A stretch of 64,000 nucleotides of DNA from Winogradskyella sediminis (GTDB lineage Bacteria > Bacteroidota > Bacteroidia > Flavobacteriales > Flavobacteriaceae): the NCBI RefSeq assembly GCF_003387355.1, contig NZ_QUNH01000001.1, positions 630,023 to 694,022 of the forward strand, read 5' to 3'. Both the position numbers and the translations under genes were made by a program. The notes under the pieces are model-generated. The model saw only the letters and a list, made by a program, of their open reading frames with translations. It did not search any database and had not been told where the DNA came from. Numbering within the stretch: the first letter of the stretch is position 1; each line of letters begins with the position of its first letter. Of this stretch, positions 38,504 through 57,409 are shown piece by piece.

Positions 38504-40375
38504 TTAACGACCCAAATAAACCAATAAAACAGAAATATCATTAGGATTAACTCCACTAATTCTTGAAGCCTGAGAAATAGTTACTGGTTGAATTTTTGTT
38601 AATTTTTGTCTAGCCTCTATACTCATAGATTTCAATTTTGAATAATCAAAATCAGTCGGAATTTTTAAATTCTCTAAACGATTAAGCTTATCAGCATTAT
38701 TTTTTTCCTTCTCGATATAACCTGCATACTTCACTTGAATTTCCGTTTGCTCTATCACTTCAGTATCCAAATTTTGCTCATCAATATATTGCGATACAGC
38801 TTCAAACTTTCGCACATCATCAATAGTAATATTAGGGCGCGCATATAACTTAAACATTTTATCTTGTTGTTTAACAGTAGCAGATTTCTTTGCTTCTAAA
38901 ACCGGATTAGCCTCTTCTGGAGTTACACTAGTGTTTCTAAAAAACTCAACAAAAGCTTCAGATTTAGATTGCTTTTCTTCCATACGCTTTAAACGTTTTT
39001 CGGAAGCCAATCCTAGTTCATAACCTTTTGGAGTTAATCTAAAATCTGCATTATCCTGTCTTAAAAGCGTTCTGTACTCAGCACGCGATGTAAACATCCT
39101 ATAAGGTTCTTCTGTTCCTTTTGTAATTAAATCATCAATTAAAACACCTATATAAGCCTCATCGCGTTGTAAGGTAAACACCTCCTTTTCTTGTACTTTT
39201 AAGCTTGCATTAATACCAGCCATTAAACCTTGAGAAGCCGCTTCTTCGTACCCCGTTGTTCCGTTTATCTGTCCTGCAAAATATAAGCCATCGACCAATT
39301 TAGTTTCTAAGGTATGTTTCAATTGAGTCGGAGGAAAGTAATCATATTCAATAGCGTAACCAGGTCTGAAGAATTTCACGTTTTCAAAACCCACTACAGA
39401 ACGCAATGCTTTAAATTGAACATCTTCTGGCAAGGATGTAGAAAACCCATTTATATAATATTCGCAGGTATTCCAACCTTCAGGCTCAACAAATAATTGA
39501 TGCCTATCTTTATCTGCAAAACGATTAATCTTATCTTCAATTGAAGGACAATAACGTGGTCCTACACTTTTAATTCTACCATTAAACATAGGAGAACGAT
39601 CAAAGCCTTCACGCAGTAAATCATGAACCAATTCACTCGTGTAAGACATATGACAAGAGCGTTGTTCCGTTAGAGGTTTGGTAATATCTAAATAGGAGAA
39701 TTTTTGTGGATCTGCATCACCTGGTTGCTCTATCATTTTAGAAAAATCTAAAGAACGACCATCCACTCGTGGTGGTGTTCCTGTTTTCATTCTACCAGAT
39801 TCAAAGCCTAAATTAACCAGCTGTTCTGTAATTCCGGTTGCCGCTCTTTCACCTGCTCTACCTCCACCGAAGTTTTTATCTCCGATATGAATTAATCCAT
39901 TTAAAAATGTTCCGTTGGTTAATACAACCGACTTACCTTTTACCTCGATACCAAGTGAGGTTTTAACACCAACAACTTTGTGATTTTCTACTAAAAGACC
40001 AGAAACCATTTCTTGGTAAAAATCTAGATTTTCTGTTTTTTCTAACAGCATTCTCCAATCCTCAGCAAAACGCATGCGGTCCGATTGTACTCTAGGACTC
40101 CACATTGCAGGACCTTTAGATTTATTCAACATCTTAAATTGAATAGCAGACGTATCAGATACAATACCACTATAACCACCTAAAGCATCAATTTCTCTTA
40201 CAATTTGCCCCTTAGCAATTCCTCCCATTGCAGGATTACAAGACATCTGTGCAATATTTTGAAGATTCATTGTAATCAACAAGGTTTTACTACCCATGTT
40301 TGCAGCCGCAGCAGCAGCTTCACTACCAGCATGACCAGCACCAACAACTATAACGTCATAAACTTCGTTAAACAT
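38504..40375 (-). CDS. mnmG: tRNA uridine-5-carboxymethylaminomethyl(34) synthesis enzyme MnmG (GidA)
   Basis: 623 residues, full length. With MnmE it modifies U34 in the wobble position of several tRNAs, using FAD, NADH, methylene-THF and glycine or ammonium. Motifs are VIVVGAGHAGSEAAAAAANM (FAD loop), MSCNPAMGGIAKGQIVREID, GGRAGERAATGITEQL, MKTGTPPRVDGRSLDF, GLYFAGQINGTTGYEEAASQ and the C-terminal RISGVNPNDISVLLVYL. A parS-like site flanks the gene on each side. The gene was originally named gidA for its place near the replication origin in many bacteria. Confidence 0.97.
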   Translation of the reverse strand: MFNEVYDVIVVGAGHAGSEAAAAAANMGSKTLLITMNLQNIAQMSCNPAMGGIAKGQIVREIDALGGYSGIVSDTSAIQFKMLNKSKGPAMWSPRVQSDRMRFAEDWRMLLEKTENLDFYQEMVSGLLVENHKVVGVKTSLGIEVKGKSVVLTNGTFLNGLIHIGDKNFGGGRAGERAATGITEQLVNLGFESGRMKTGTPPRVDGRSLDFSKMIEQPGDADPQKFSYLDITKPLTEQRSCHMSYTSELVHDLLREGFDRSPMFNGRIKSVGPRYCPSIEDKINRFADKDRHQLFVEPEGWNTCEYYINGFSTSLPEDVQFKALRSVVGFENVKFFRPGYAIEYDYFPPTQLKHTLETKLVDGLYFAGQINGTTGYEEAASQGLMAGINASLKVQEKEVFTLQRDEAYIGVLIDDLITKGTEEPYRMFTSRAEYRTLLRQDNADFRLTPKGYELGLASEKRLKRMEEKQSKSEAFVEFFRNTSVTPEEANPVLEAKKSATVKQQDKMFKLYARPNITIDDVRKFEAVSQYIDEQNLDTEVIEQTEIQVKYAGYIEKEKNNADKLNRLENLKIPTDFDYSKLKSMSIEARQKLTKIQPVTISQASRISGVNPNDISVLLVYLGR

Positions 40376-40390
40376 ATCGTTATTAATTTT

Positions 40391-40406
40391 TGTTCCACGT
40401 GGAACA
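40391..40406. promoter_or_regulatory. parS-like ParB binding site 2
   Basis: TGTTCCACGTGGAACA, a perfect 16-bp palindrome, 16 bases upstream of the mnmG start codon. It is the more symmetric of the two parS-like sites. Confidence 0.78.
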
Positions 40407-40412
40407 ATTAAA

Positions 40413-40497
40413 TTCCTGATAAGACAGGAACCCTAATATTATATTTATTCTTCTTTGTTAGAAGAATACCTAATTCATTTTTGAATTTGCAAATATA
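40413..40497 (-). promoter_or_regulatory. mnmG leader: two hairpins and a -7 promoter element
   Basis: Minus strand TATATTTG (40497-40490) fits the -7 consensus. Downstream on the minus strand come a hairpin with arms 40460-40468 and 40446-40454 and a second with TTCCTG and CAGGAA (40413-40430), before parS-like site 2. The hairpins may end ybeY transcription or structure the mnmG leader. Confidence 0.4.
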
Positions 40498-40517
40498 CAA
40501 TGAAAAAGAAGTACTTA

Positions 40518-40925
40518 TTATCGCTTCGCTAGGTAGTGGTCTTCTTTAGAACGCATCACTTTTTCATCCGCATCAGTCTTATCTTTATAACCGCAATAAT
40601 GCAATACACCATGAATAATTACACGCGCTATTTCATCGTTAAAAGACACTTGAAAATCTGATGCATTTTCCTTCACTCGATCTACAGAAATATAAATATC
40701 GCCATGTAGTTCTTTTCCTACTGAGTAATCGAAACTAATGACATCCGTTAAGGTATCATGGTCTAAAAAATCTACATTTAATTTATGCAAATAATCATCC
40801 GAACAAAAGATATAATTAATCTCTCCTTCCCTACAGTTTTCTTCTGTGATGGTATTAGAAATCCATCTTTCTAACTGGTCCTTGTTTTCTAATATAAAAT
40901 CGGTTTCGTAGTTAAAACTAATCAT
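40518..40925 (-). CDS. ybeY: Endoribonuclease YbeY (rRNA maturation factor)
   Basis: 135 residues, the usual length. It is a zinc-dependent RNase for 16S rRNA 3'-end maturation and ribosome quality control. The central TLTDVISFDYSV and the zinc motif VIIHGVLHYCGYKDK fit the family HGxLHLxGYDH, with a Lys-Asp-Lys variant at the third ligand region; DHYL at the C-terminus is also usual. Its start overlaps the end of the DUF4175 gene by 8 bases. Confidence 0.92.
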   Translation of the reverse strand: MISFNYETDFILENKDQLERWISNTITEENCREGEINYIFCSDDYLHKLNVDFLDHDTLTDVISFDYSVGKELHGDIYISVDRVKENASDFQVSFNDEIARVIIHGVLHYCGYKDKTDADEKVMRSKEDHYLAKR

Positions 40926-54015: not shown

Positions 54016-56262
54016 TTACTCTTCACTAGTTTCAGGTTTTCCTACCATATAGAAATCGAGATGCTTTTTAGCTAAATCTGCATTTTTAACTTTAACAACG
54101 ACTTCATCACCAAGCTGGTACATGGTATCAGTGTTTTTACCAATCATAGCATACTGATCCTGGTCAAATTGATAGTGATCATCTTTTAAATCTCTAACAC
54201 TTACCATGCCTTCACATTTATTAGAAATAATTTCAATATAAATTCCCCAATCGGTAACTCCAGAAATAACACCCAAAAATTCTTCATCTTGATGATCTTG
54301 CATAAAGCGAATCTGCATGTATTTAATAGAATCGCGCTCTGCTTTAGTTGCTAAATATTCCATGTTACTAGAATGCTTACAACGTTCTTCATAAATGTCT
54401 TCATTGGCAGATTTTTCGCCATCTAAATAACGTTGTAATAAACGGTGTGCCATGACATCTGGATAACGTCTAATTGGTGAAGTAAAATGACTGTAATACT
54501 CAAACGCTAAACCATAATGCCCTATATTATGTGTTGTGTATTCCGCTTTAGACATGGTTCTAATTGTTAAAGTATCTACTAAATTCTGTTCTTTTTTACC
54601 AACAACATCCTTTAGTAAATTATTTAAAGAGGATGCAATACTGCCTTTATCTTTAAAATTTAATTTATGTCCAAAACGTGCTACAACGGTTTGAAGTTGT
54701 GCTAATTTAGATTCGTCAGGTTCATCGTGAACACGATACACAAATGTTTTCTTTTGTTTACCTACAAACTCAGATACTTTTCGGTTAGCTAATAGCATAA
54801 ATTCTTCAATCATCTTATTAGCATCCTTACTAGTTTTAAAATGAATACCGATTGGATTAGCTTCTTCATCTAAGTTAAATTTTACTTCAACTTTATCAAA
54901 AGAGATAGCTCCTTCTCGCATACGTACCGATCGCATTTTTCGAGCCAATTGATTCATTTTTGTAATAGCTTGTGCAATATCTATATCTGTTTGATAACTT
55001 TTACCAGTTAATGAAACCTCAGTAGGAATTGTTGTATCTATTTTTTCTTTATGTTTTAATACATCAACGTTATTAAGCGACGCATTATTTTCAATTATGG
55101 CTTGTGCTTCTTCATAGGCAAATCGCGCATCAGAATAGGTCACGGTTCTACCAAACCATTCTTTTTTAATTTCGCATTTATCGTTCATATGAAACACAGC
55201 AGAAAAGGTATATTTTTCCTCATGTGGACGCAGTGAACAAGCTCCATTACTCAATATTTCTGGTAACATTGGTACAACACGATCTACTAAATAAATGGAT
55301 GTAGCACGTTCGTAAGCTTCATCATCTAAAACCGTTCCTGGCTGTAAATAATGCGATACATCTGCTATATGGATGCCTATTTCATATAAGCCATTATCTA
55401 AAATTTTAAAGGATAAAGCATCATCAAAATCTTTGGCGTCCTTAGGATCTATCGTAAAGGTTAAATCTTTACGCATATCACGTCGTTTCGCTATTTCTTC
55501 AGGTTTAATTTCTAAATCAATCTTATTAGCAAAAGCTTCCACTTCGTGCGGAAACTCTAAGGGTAATCCGTATTCTGCTAAAATGGCATGAATTTCGGTA
55601 CTATGCTCACCTGGTTTTCCTAAAACTTCTATGACTTTTCCGTTAGGAGAATCAGCCTTTTCTGGCCAATCTTCTAATGATACCAACACAATATCTCCAT
55701 CTTCTGCTTTATTAGTTTTGTTTATTGGAACAAAAATGTCGGTGTACATTTTACTACTTTCAACAACAACGAAGGCAAAATTCTTTTTATCATGAATTTG
55801 AATACTTCCAACATATTCCGTTTTAGCACGCTTTATAATATTGGTAATTTCTCCTTCTTGTTTGCCTCTGTGTTTTCTTTTATAAGCGTAGAATTCTACT
55901 TCGTCACCATGTAAAGCTTTGTTCATATTGTTTGAAGCGATGAATATATCTTCTTCAAAATCGTCTGAAATTACATAGCCATTCCCTTTAGAAGCTACAT
56001 CTAAAATACCAGTATGATATTCGGTATTAACAATAGCTTTAAACTTACCACGATCTACTTCTTCAATCTCTTGTTTAGCTTTGAGTTGTTGTAGTTTCTT
56101 TATAATTTGATTGCGACTACTAGCATCGTTAACACCAAGTTTAGCAGCAATTTGTTTATAATTAAAGGATTGGTTTCTATCTTTTTTTAAAATACTAAGA
56201 ATTGTATTTGTAAGGTTAGAAATCTTATTACTTCTAGATTTCCTTTTTTTCTTTTTTGTCAT
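54016..56262 (-). CDS. rnr: Ribonuclease R
   Basis: 748 residues. A 3'-5' exoribonuclease for structured RNA. From the N-terminus: a winged-helix-like basic domain (SFNYKQIAAKLGVNDASSRN), two cold-shock domains (KGNGYVISDDFEEDIFIASN), the RNB core with FTIDPKDAKDFDDALSFKIL holding the four catalytic Asp, HIADVSHYLQPGTVLD, and YYSHFTSPIRRYPDVMAHRL, then an S1 domain (GVISGVTDWGIYIEIISNKC). The gene reads away from the candidate replication origin. Confidence 0.96.
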   Translation of the reverse strand: MTKKKKRKSRSNKISNLTNTILSILKKDRNQSFNYKQIAAKLGVNDASSRNQIIKKLQQLKAKQEIEEVDRGKFKAIVNTEYHTGILDVASKGNGYVISDDFEEDIFIASNNMNKALHGDEVEFYAYKRKHRGKQEGEITNIIKRAKTEYVGSIQIHDKKNFAFVVVESSKMYTDIFVPINKTNKAEDGDIVLVSLEDWPEKADSPNGKVIEVLGKPGEHSTEIHAILAEYGLPLEFPHEVEAFANKIDLEIKPEEIAKRRDMRKDLTFTIDPKDAKDFDDALSFKILDNGLYEIGIHIADVSHYLQPGTVLDDEAYERATSIYLVDRVVPMLPEILSNGACSLRPHEEKYTFSAVFHMNDKCEIKKEWFGRTVTYSDARFAYEEAQAIIENNASLNNVDVLKHKEKIDTTIPTEVSLTGKSYQTDIDIAQAITKMNQLARKMRSVRMREGAISFDKVEVKFNLDEEANPIGIHFKTSKDANKMIEEFMLLANRKVSEFVGKQKKTFVYRVHDEPDESKLAQLQTVVARFGHKLNFKDKGSIASSLNNLLKDVVGKKEQNLVDTLTIRTMSKAEYTTHNIGHYGLAFEYYSHFTSPIRRYPDVMAHRLLQRYLDGEKSANEDIYEERCKHSSNMEYLATKAERDSIKYMQIRFMQDHQDEEFLGVISGVTDWGIYIEIISNKCEGMVSVRDLKDDHYQFDQDQYAMIGKNTDTMYQLGDEVVVKVKNADLAKKHLDFYMVGKPETSEE

Positions 56263-56485
56263 GTATAATTGTAATCATATTCATTTCCTATAAGTGATAG
56301 GAATTCTTATTTAAAACTTAATAAAAGCGAAGAGAGGAGATTAAGTTTACTACAAAGTTACGGTTAAATTATTTAATAGTGTTTAGCTAAGGTTAAATTA
56401 ATAAAAAACGATGTTATCAACATATATATACATATCATCTTTTTTCTTTTAAAATTTTAAAAAATAAATAGTGGTTATTATAGTC

Positions 56486-56845
56486 TGTTAATAGTGGCTA
56501 TAACTTTTTGAAGTTTTATTTTGATTCTTCGTAGTTTACATTTTACAACATTTTAGTTAACATTAAATTTACATCTAATCGCTTCATTTCTAAGCTTCCT
56601 TAGAAAGCTATTAACATCTGTTAATAACGATTGTTAATAGAATTGACTCATATGTATTTTTAAAAATACTGTTGATTTCATAAAATTTTAGTTTGATAAC
56701 TTATTTTAAAAAAATGGCTAACTAATTAGGATTTTAACTTTCTATTCTGGTTTGGAAAAATATGTGGATAATCCTAATTTTTATTTTCAAGAGTTGTGAA
56801 CAGTTATTAACATTTAGTTATCATTAGAAGTGATACTTATTAACA
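56486..56845. repeat. Six-copy 8-mer array TGTTAATA/TATTAACA
   Basis: Starts at 56486 (+), 56609 (-), 56619 (+), 56632 (+), 56805 (-) and 56838 (-). By rough base-composition arithmetic far less than one copy is expected in 360 bases. The 56609-56639 group holds three copies within 31 bases. Candidate initiator or regulator binding sites. Confidence 0.65.
56763..56771 (-). promoter_or_regulatory. Perfect DnaA box
   Basis: Plus strand TGTGGATAA is the reverse complement of TTATCCACA, the E. coli R1-type consensus. Confidence 0.6.
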
Positions 56846-56974
56846 TCGTTTAATAACGTCAACTAAAAACGGACACATCAAAATTAAAACTTATGGATAA
56901 GTATAACATTATTAGTTATGCTTACTTATAATCAATTGTTAACTTTGAAGTTTAATAACAAAGACCACGCAATT

Positions 56975-57409
56975 ATGACTATTTCAATAGGAAACGATCA
57001 CGCAGGACCAGATTATAAATTTGCAATCGTTAAGCATTTAGAAGCCAATGGACATACCATTACTAATTATGGAACCGATAGTTTAGATAGCGTAGATTAT
57101 CCAGATTTTGTACATCCAGTGGCTAAAGACGTAGAAGCTAAAAAAGTAGATTTTGGTATTCTTATATGTGGAAGCGCTAATGGTGTTGCTATGACAGCTA
57201 ATAAGTATCAACATGTAAGAGCTGGAGTATGTTGGACAAACGAAATTACCGAATTAACACGTTTGCACAATAATGCTAATATTATTTGTATTCCGGCGCG
57301 TTTTACATCGATTCCACAAGCTATTAAAATGGTAGATACATTTTTAAATACTGAATTTGAAGGTGGTCGTCATCAAAACCGTGTGGATAAAATTCCAGCA
57401 TCATGTTAA
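56975..57409 (+). CDS. rpiB: Ribose 5-phosphate isomerase B
   Basis: 144 residues from ATG 56975 (MTISIGNDHAG); an in-frame ATG at 56918 would add 19 residues without a family counterpart. It interconverts ribose 5-phosphate and ribulose 5-phosphate. NDHAGPDYKF and LICGSANGVAMTANKYQHVR hold the family Cys and phosphate-binding loop (usually CGTGIGM), and LTRLHNNANIICIPARF is also conserved. The loop variant SANG may be ordinary in this clade. First gene of a three-gene + operon with a CDF transporter and a GNAT protein. Confidence 0.92.
   Translation: MTISIGNDHAGPDYKFAIVKHLEANGHTITNYGTDSLDSVDYPDFVHPVAKDVEAKKVDFGILICGSANGVAMTANKYQHVRAGVCWTNEITELTRLHNNANIICIPARFTSIPQAIKMVDTFLNTEFEGGRHQNRVDKIPASC

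Follow-up and report, generated by a model that had tools for sequence, protein, structure and literature searches.

The window analysed here is a stretch of 64,000 nucleotides (C1:630023-694022) from an assembly of 32 contigs and 3.80 Mb. It holds an intergenic gap of 712 bp (56263-56974) between the divergent genes rnr, on the left, and rpiB, on the right, and the closest named relatives of this rpiB are those of Winogradskyella. The gap and its neighbours are:

54016..56262, minus strand: rnr, ribonuclease R, left neighbour (NCBIfam TIGR02063, 709.7 bits)
56263..56974, no strand: putative oriC (GC3-skew change point; conserved spacer; box cluster without match in the sampled genome)
56975..57409, plus strand: rpiB, ribose 5-phosphate isomerase B, right neighbour (NCBIfam TIGR01120, above cut-off)

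The G+C content is 22.9% in this gap against 31.7% across the window, and the ORF lists of the window, read by eye, held no longer gap, in agreement with a sequence-only reading of this DNA that had described the longest gene-free stretch, of about 0.7 kb, as flanked by divergent rnr and rpiB. No structured RNA matched Rfam at the gathering score between 56000 and 57100. As argued below, the 712-bp rnr/rpiB gap is very probably the oriC of a Winogradskyella-like chromosome.

One perfect DnaA box, two one-mismatch boxes and six copies of an 8-mer had been listed for this gap, and all of them are present. The exact TTATCCACA occurs as one copy (56763, minus), the one-mismatch boxes are TTATCAACA at 56414 (plus) and TTATCCATA at 56892 (minus), and the 8-mer TGTTAATA/TATTAACA lies at 56486, 56609, 56619, 56632, 56805 and 56838, with three of the six packed into 56609-56639. 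Of the 18 copies of the 8-mer in the window, six fall in the gap, which makes up 1.1% of the window's length. First-order shuffles of the spacer gave a mean of 0.19 8-mers, with six or more in 0 of 5000; whole-window shuffles (n=200) gave a maximum of four in any 712 bp, and 755 kb sampled from the same genome a maximum of three in any 712-bp stretch. Direct pairs of the 8-mer at most 30 bp apart are found at three places in the 3.80-Mb assembly, two of them in the gap, and facing pairs TATTAACA...TGTTAATA also at three places, one of them in the gap. What the sequence-only reading missed is that the 8-mer is the 3' part, eight bases long, of a 9-mer resembling a DnaA box, TTATTAACA in three copies and CTATTAACA in the other three. 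It was right that the 8-mer is not the DnaA consensus: these boxes carry A at position 6 and do not match TTATNCACA, which within the gap is matched at 56763 only. The cluster of DnaA boxes is above chance under the variant box NTATNMACA, with eight sites in the 712-bp gap and no more than four in any other stretch of this length in the window or the sampled genome, while the strict TTATCCACA counts one. Exact TTATCCACA was also considered as an origin marker and rejected, there being 55 copies in the genome and the one in the gap not being conserved.

For the conservation of individual sites, the spacer was aligned with those of 22 relatives chosen out of 71, a site being counted as kept where NTATNMACA stands at the same columns; the alignment may favour matching words, and alignment-free box maps measured from rpiB gave much the same spacing in closer relatives. 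The candidate elements are:

56414..56422, plus strand: left DnaA box TTATCAACA, kept in 21/22 relatives
56423..56485, no strand: candidate DNA unwinding element, rich in A+T (93% over one stretch of 30 bp), with a putative role in unwinding
56486..56494, minus strand: DnaA box CTATTAACA (8-mer copy) beside the candidate unwinding element, 21/22 relatives
56608..56616, plus strand: DnaA box CTATTAACA, number 1 of the triple, 19/22 relatives
56619..56627, minus strand: DnaA box TTATTAACA, number 2 of the triple, facing number 1 with a 2-bp gap, 21/22 relatives
56632..56640, minus strand: DnaA box CTATTAACA, number 3 of the triple, 13/22 relatives
56763..56771, minus strand: exact TTATCCACA of the sequence-only reading, not conserved, 0/22 relatives
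56804..56812, plus strand: DnaA box TTATTAACA, 22/22 relatives
56837..56845, plus strand: DnaA box TTATTAACA, partly conserved, 8/22 relatives, the stretch being absent in 11
56892..56900, minus strand: one-mismatch TTATCCATA of the sequence-only reading, probably no box, NTATNMACA in 0/22 relatives

A comparison of this spacer among relatives had been proposed together with the origin, and four of the six 8-mer boxes are retained in at least 19 of the 22. The more conventional boxes fared unevenly: the one at 56414 is conserved, but those at 56763 and 56892 are not. The candidate unwinding element is partly conserved, and its conserved GGTTATTATAG-like end adjoins the 56486 box.

The position of the origin on the chromosome was approached through GC skew, with a two-class model of third-position G and C on coding strands applied to 20 stretches of 20 kb along C1 plus the window (377 ORFs; 694.0-700.0 kb is unsampled, and contigs C2 and C3 lie outside the model). 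The switch from negative to positive is best fitted at 683.0 kb. The fit at the gap (686.65 kb) is 1.8 log units below this best, and the distances are 6.5 at 675 kb, 5.4 at 688 kb, 6.9 at 690 kb, 12.3 at 694 kb, 26.6 at 670 kb, where mnmG lies, and 131 at 630 kb, all in log units that overstate the certainty because bases are not independent. The skew check suggested earlier, run here on sampled stretches, gives a switch at about 675-690 kb, a range that includes the gap; with a resolution of this order, skew alone cannot therefore pick the gap.

Five one-contig relatives were sampled for raw GC skew in eight 20-kb stretches each. The skew is negative at -50 kb and positive at +50 kb of rpiB in 5/5, the -50 kb stretch of one of them, G333, being ambiguous after strand correction, and a negative-to-positive change around dnaA was seen in 0/5. 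In four of these relatives an origin at rpiB fits better than one at dnaA, by 90, 177, 90 and 36 log units, and leaving the origin free on a 40-kb grid gives a best fit level with that of rpiB. For G333, the remaining relative, the free-origin fit at 840 kb beats rpiB (1025 kb) by 6.3 log units and the dnaA model has no valid fit. The dnaA gene is 0.7-1.7 Mb from rpiB in the five relatives and here sits on a contig separate from that of the gap (C3:20.6-21.6 kb), so the claim that this origin is not next to dnaA holds.

A divergent rnr within 4.5 kb upstream of rpiB was found in 71/80 named loci; nine are without it, three of them at contig ends with less than 0.8 kb of upstream contig. In the order-wide sample it is present in 21/21 genomes of the same family, and in other families in 0/22 genomes fetched, with 0/11 in further genomes of a class sample. 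Genus g4, of the same family, has it in 12 of the 16 genomes examined and lacks it in four (20 had an rpiB match). The skew switch, on the own chromosome and in five relatives, and the conserved divergent rnr strongly support the earlier call of an oriC at this place. Elsewhere, the gene diverging from rpiB, read at eight of ten loci, is pgk at three (L129, L224 and L207), a MORN-repeat gene at four (L209, L211, L223 and L138) and a gene for a secreted-type protein at the remaining one, and these other families keep a box-containing gap upstream of rpiB beside pgk or the MORN-repeat gene. In family f2 the 600 bp upstream of rpiB are box-rich (30 loci; 40 genomes searched). From such box-rich gaps with changed partner genes, rpiB may therefore be the lasting neighbour of the origin, with a divergent partner that changes.

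A tiny-genome family, f83, which appears to be Blattabacterium-like, could serve as a weak natural control. Its DnaA domain IV match is absent in 20/20 genomes (19 listed, one deduced), and rpiB in the two genomes fetched is preceded, by a nearest-ORF rule, by gaps of 0 and 95 bp that have no box. For Blattabacterium, PMC2768785 reports no dnaA and no DnaA boxes.

The enrichment of the 8-mer was measured in those 56 of 72 spacers, that of the window included, whose length does not exceed 1.5 kb, the 16 longer ones being excluded. TATTAACA was counted 170 times where shuffles predict 14.9 and is present in 54/56 spacers, TATCAACA occurs 48 times against 3.4, and TATCCACA 26 times against 0.9. 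The density of TATTAACA is 3.53/kb in the spacers versus 0.233/kb outside them in the same loci, an enrichment of 15-fold, with 10-fold for TATCAACA and 10-fold for TATCCACA; the mirror-image 8-mer has 17 occurrences in the spacers. Among the 16 possible middles of TAT-NN-ACA, only TA, CA, AA, GA, CC, TC and AT show enrichment by a factor of 5 or higher, so that the canonical CC and TC rise along with TA and CA; the AT middle probably reflects a conserved ATATATACA run. Pieces of ATAGCGGTATAAC were also seen in 16-20 of the 56 spacers, some at the place that corresponds to window 56474-56510, where a core GTTATTATAG-TGTTAATAG-TATAACTTTTT is near-invariant in 11 aligned spacers.

A conserved anchor, TTATTATAG, is found in 40/72 spacers (43 occurrences), and in each of the 40 a TT.T..ACA site lies 60-62 bp before one anchor, the three extra anchors being without such a site. 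The 9-mer at this anchored position, the one taken in the window by the left box 56414, is TTATCAACA in 17 spacers, TTATCCACA in 12 and TTATTAACA in six, with TTATGAACA, TTATTCACA, TTTTCCACA, TTGTCAACA and TTATAAACA once each. Because TT.T..ACA fixes six positions by construction, the search was repeated with no demand beyond a match at three of the first four bases. Over its 42 readings, positions 7-9 are A in 41, C in 40 and A in 40, position 5 is C in 32, T in eight, A in one and G in one, position 6 is A in 27, C in 14 and G in one, and no flanking column rises above 34/42. Boxes of the 8-mer type and canonical boxes thus interchange at orthologous sites, both at the anchored position and in the aligned spacers, and the swapping of TTATCAACA, TTATTAACA, TTATGAACA, TTATTCACA and TTATCCACA at one fixed position therefore points to one reader, DnaA. 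To judge by these sequence comparisons, the 8-mer is probably a DnaA box with a changed middle, from TTATCCACA to [TC]TATTAACA. Of the two roles that had been offered for it, a clade-specific initiator site fits, and a site for an origin-specific regulator becomes less likely because the 8-mer form swaps with canonical boxes at the same aligned position.

The recognition helix of the DnaA of this genome is RDHATV, and its alanine aligns with the first threonine of RDHTTV (chain 1j1v_A), which is E. coli Thr435 in the numbering of PMC7561715. The recognition helix reads the 3' part TnCACA of the box, and the mutant T435M is defective in box binding (review, PMC5742627). KRH together with RDHATV was found in 20/21 same-family genomes, and the exception, G151, has KRN and RDHSTV, with four TATCCACA. 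Because of this exception, the genus of G151, g4, was sampled. In g4, three genomes with RDHATV and divergent rnr (G365, G360 and G364, the last with a measured spacer of 4.2 kb) have TATNAACA to TATNCACA at 21 to 2, and eight RDHSTV genomes with divergent rnr at 4 to 39; a Fisher test on these box types gives 3e-11, with sites that are not independent. G357 (RDHATV, KRN; 4 to 2) was left out of this test, and G373 (RDHATV, KRN, rnr not adjacent) has 3 to 2. In a DnaA tree of 40 sequences the RDHSTV genomes form a group (support 1.0) that branches from among the RDHATV genomes of the family, so the serine seems to have come back on a single branch, and the evidence amounts to one event.

Within genus g4 the box type would then follow the DnaA helix, as a single evolutionary event, and other families differ. 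The DnaA of family f2 has KDHSTV in the six genomes read, and its 30 rpiB-upstream loci, most of whose DnaAs were unseen, have 58 TATNAACA against 9.7 expected and 34 TATNCACA against 3.3. In eight genomes of family f74, with KDHATV, the ratio of TATNAACA to TATNCACA is 15 to 9. An order-wide single-residue code, with Ser435 for C6 boxes and Ala435 for A6 boxes, is rejected by the f2 and f74 counts. We tentatively entertain, with more doubt than confidence, a joint drift of DnaA and origin in Flavobacteriaceae, towards alanine at Thr435 (RDHATV), histidine after the loop KR and TTAT(C/T)AACA boxes, with a nested subclade that reverted to RDHSTV and TTATCCACA.

We hold it highly likely that the rnr/rpiB gap is the chromosomal origin and that DnaA binds an array of variant boxes there. 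The skew switch, the conserved gene order, the conservation of the boxes and their interchange are the computed support; DnaA as the binder, the site of DNA opening and the loading of the helicase are what we infer. DnaA, encoded elsewhere, would bind about seven boxes of the form [TC]TAT(C/T)AACA, with the canonical TTATCCACA as an accepted alternative, and the six-copy 8-mer would be the core of this box, in which the middle dinucleotide TA replaces CC. The array would begin with a left box and a second box that faces it, about 70 bp off, across the A+T-rich element; then would come a middle cluster in which two facing boxes are separated by 2 bp, and finally one or two boxes closer to rpiB. 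Across the A+T-rich 56423-56485 from the left box stands the 56486 box, its 3' end turned toward this stretch. Assembly of DnaA would melt this A+T-rich element, and loading of the replicative helicase would follow. The facing pair 56608/56619 has a 2-bp gap, and 2 bp is given as the optimal inter-box distance for a DnaA filament in a Helicobacter paper (PMC8235120).

Upstream of dnaA itself (17 regions of 300 bp) no box array was found, eight regions having a single site, which in three overlaps the start codon, and nine having none; there is therefore no sign that DnaA regulates its own gene through such boxes.

The gap could be oriC and its TATTAACA sites could still be bound by some other clade-specific initiation regulator beside DnaA, an arrangement that we think unlikely. 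The 8-mer form does deviate from TTATNCACA at position 6, where deviations are said to lower the affinity of an E. coli-type DnaA (PMC5043019), and canonical boxes are far fewer than TATTAACA in the spacers. However, canonical and TATNAACA forms swap at the same aligned, fixed-spacing position, both kinds of box are enriched in the same spacer set, and box type tracks DnaA sequence in genus g4; moreover, C to A at position 6 is described as rare but tolerated in Epsilonproteobacteria in that paper.

An origin elsewhere near the skew switch can be considered too, for example at mnmG (window 38504-40375), which Ori-Finder 2022 named as the origin of an Algorimicrobium strain, with GC skew said to validate it (PMC12843772). 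Since mnmG is only 16 kb from the gap, the two are inseparable on a coarse skew plot, but the change-point fit falls 26.6 log units below the best at 670 kb versus 1.8 at the gap, no NTATNMACA site lies within 40000-40900, and the box cluster of the gap is without equal in the 755 kb sampled. An origin elsewhere near the switch is thus very improbable, and mnmG was ruled out on the change-point fit and the absence of boxes. A shade less probable still is that the gap serves rnr and rpiB merely as a double promoter and regulatory region, its A+T-rich repeats having arisen by drift: divergent promoters must sit in the gap and A+T words are favoured by its base composition, yet the skew switches here and in five relatives, the box count far exceeds both composition-matched shuffles and the mirror motif, and a box-containing rpiB gap persists beside pgk or a MORN-repeat gene in other families.

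The E. coli-type oriC combines a cluster of boxes with an A+T-rich unwinding element, and dnaA is not adjacent to it. The rnr/rpiB gap, which we favour as a DnaA-bound origin, is alike in its box cluster, in an A+T-rich element that faces the 3' end of a box, an arrangement resembling E. coli R1 and its unwinding element, and in the GC-skew switch, whereas most of its boxes are [TC]TAT(C/T)AACA and not TTATNCACA, and it is flanked by rnr and rpiB. Both origins away from dnaA and DnaA boxes peculiar to a clade are already known kinds. Species-specific boxes have been described in Cyanobacteria (TTTTCCACA) and Thermotoga (AAACCTACCACC) (PMC10225481), and the Epsilonproteobacteria have a box core TTCAC that is tied to changes in DnaA domain IV (PMC5043019). 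The shift seen here is likewise clade-wide, but it takes position 6 from C to A with mostly C or T at position 5, whereas the Epsilonproteobacteria fix T at 5 and rarely have A at 6. A position-6 shift from C to A with C or T at 5 was described for no clade in the literature that we found. The basal unwinding system is made of a DnaA-box, a spacer and DnaA-trios, in which three or more NAN triplets lie no further than 16 bp from the box (PMC8287927). As in that system, a box here adjoins an A+T-rich stretch, and in the direction leading away from the 56486 box a GAT triplet stands two bases from it; a strict run of three in-frame NAN triplets was not seen beside this box, the one read by eye. 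The Ori-Finder oriC of Elizabethkingia meningoseptica, also of the Flavobacteriales, is 649 bp long, lies far from dnaA as here, and has three boxes with at most one mismatch (PMC8994065). Unlike here, that prediction used the E. coli box, and the available text mentions neither a TATTAACA form nor neighbour genes. In the open-access literature we found no description of this box form, of the rpiB neighbourhood or of the link to DnaA.

Box pairs were also met at two other places of the assembly. On the 5.15-kb contig C14, which is possibly a small replicon, two exact TTATCCACA lie 67 bp apart (locus L039, C14:1-3000, positions 877-952), in the first 80 bases of an ORF to which no function was assigned (204-953, minus). 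On C3, 12 kb from dnaA, a perfect facing pair TATTAACAATTGTTAATA (L381, about 1442-1459; C3:8241-8258) stands in the gap after an ORF that we read as resembling ribosomal protein L19, and this pair could be a second DnaA site.

With the rnr/rpiB gap, a large family of marine and soil bacteria gains an origin that can be tested, where software based on the E. coli box or on the usual marker genes can point elsewhere, and a simple rule for finding it: look for rpiB beside a long divergent spacer with many NTATNMACA sites. Should the joint drift be true, it would document in nature a change of specificity shared by an essential initiator and its origin sites. A true link between helix and box would show a stepwise change of DNA specificity by an essential initiator, in which single sites would be free to drift, one by one, thanks to tolerance at positions 5 and 6 of the box.
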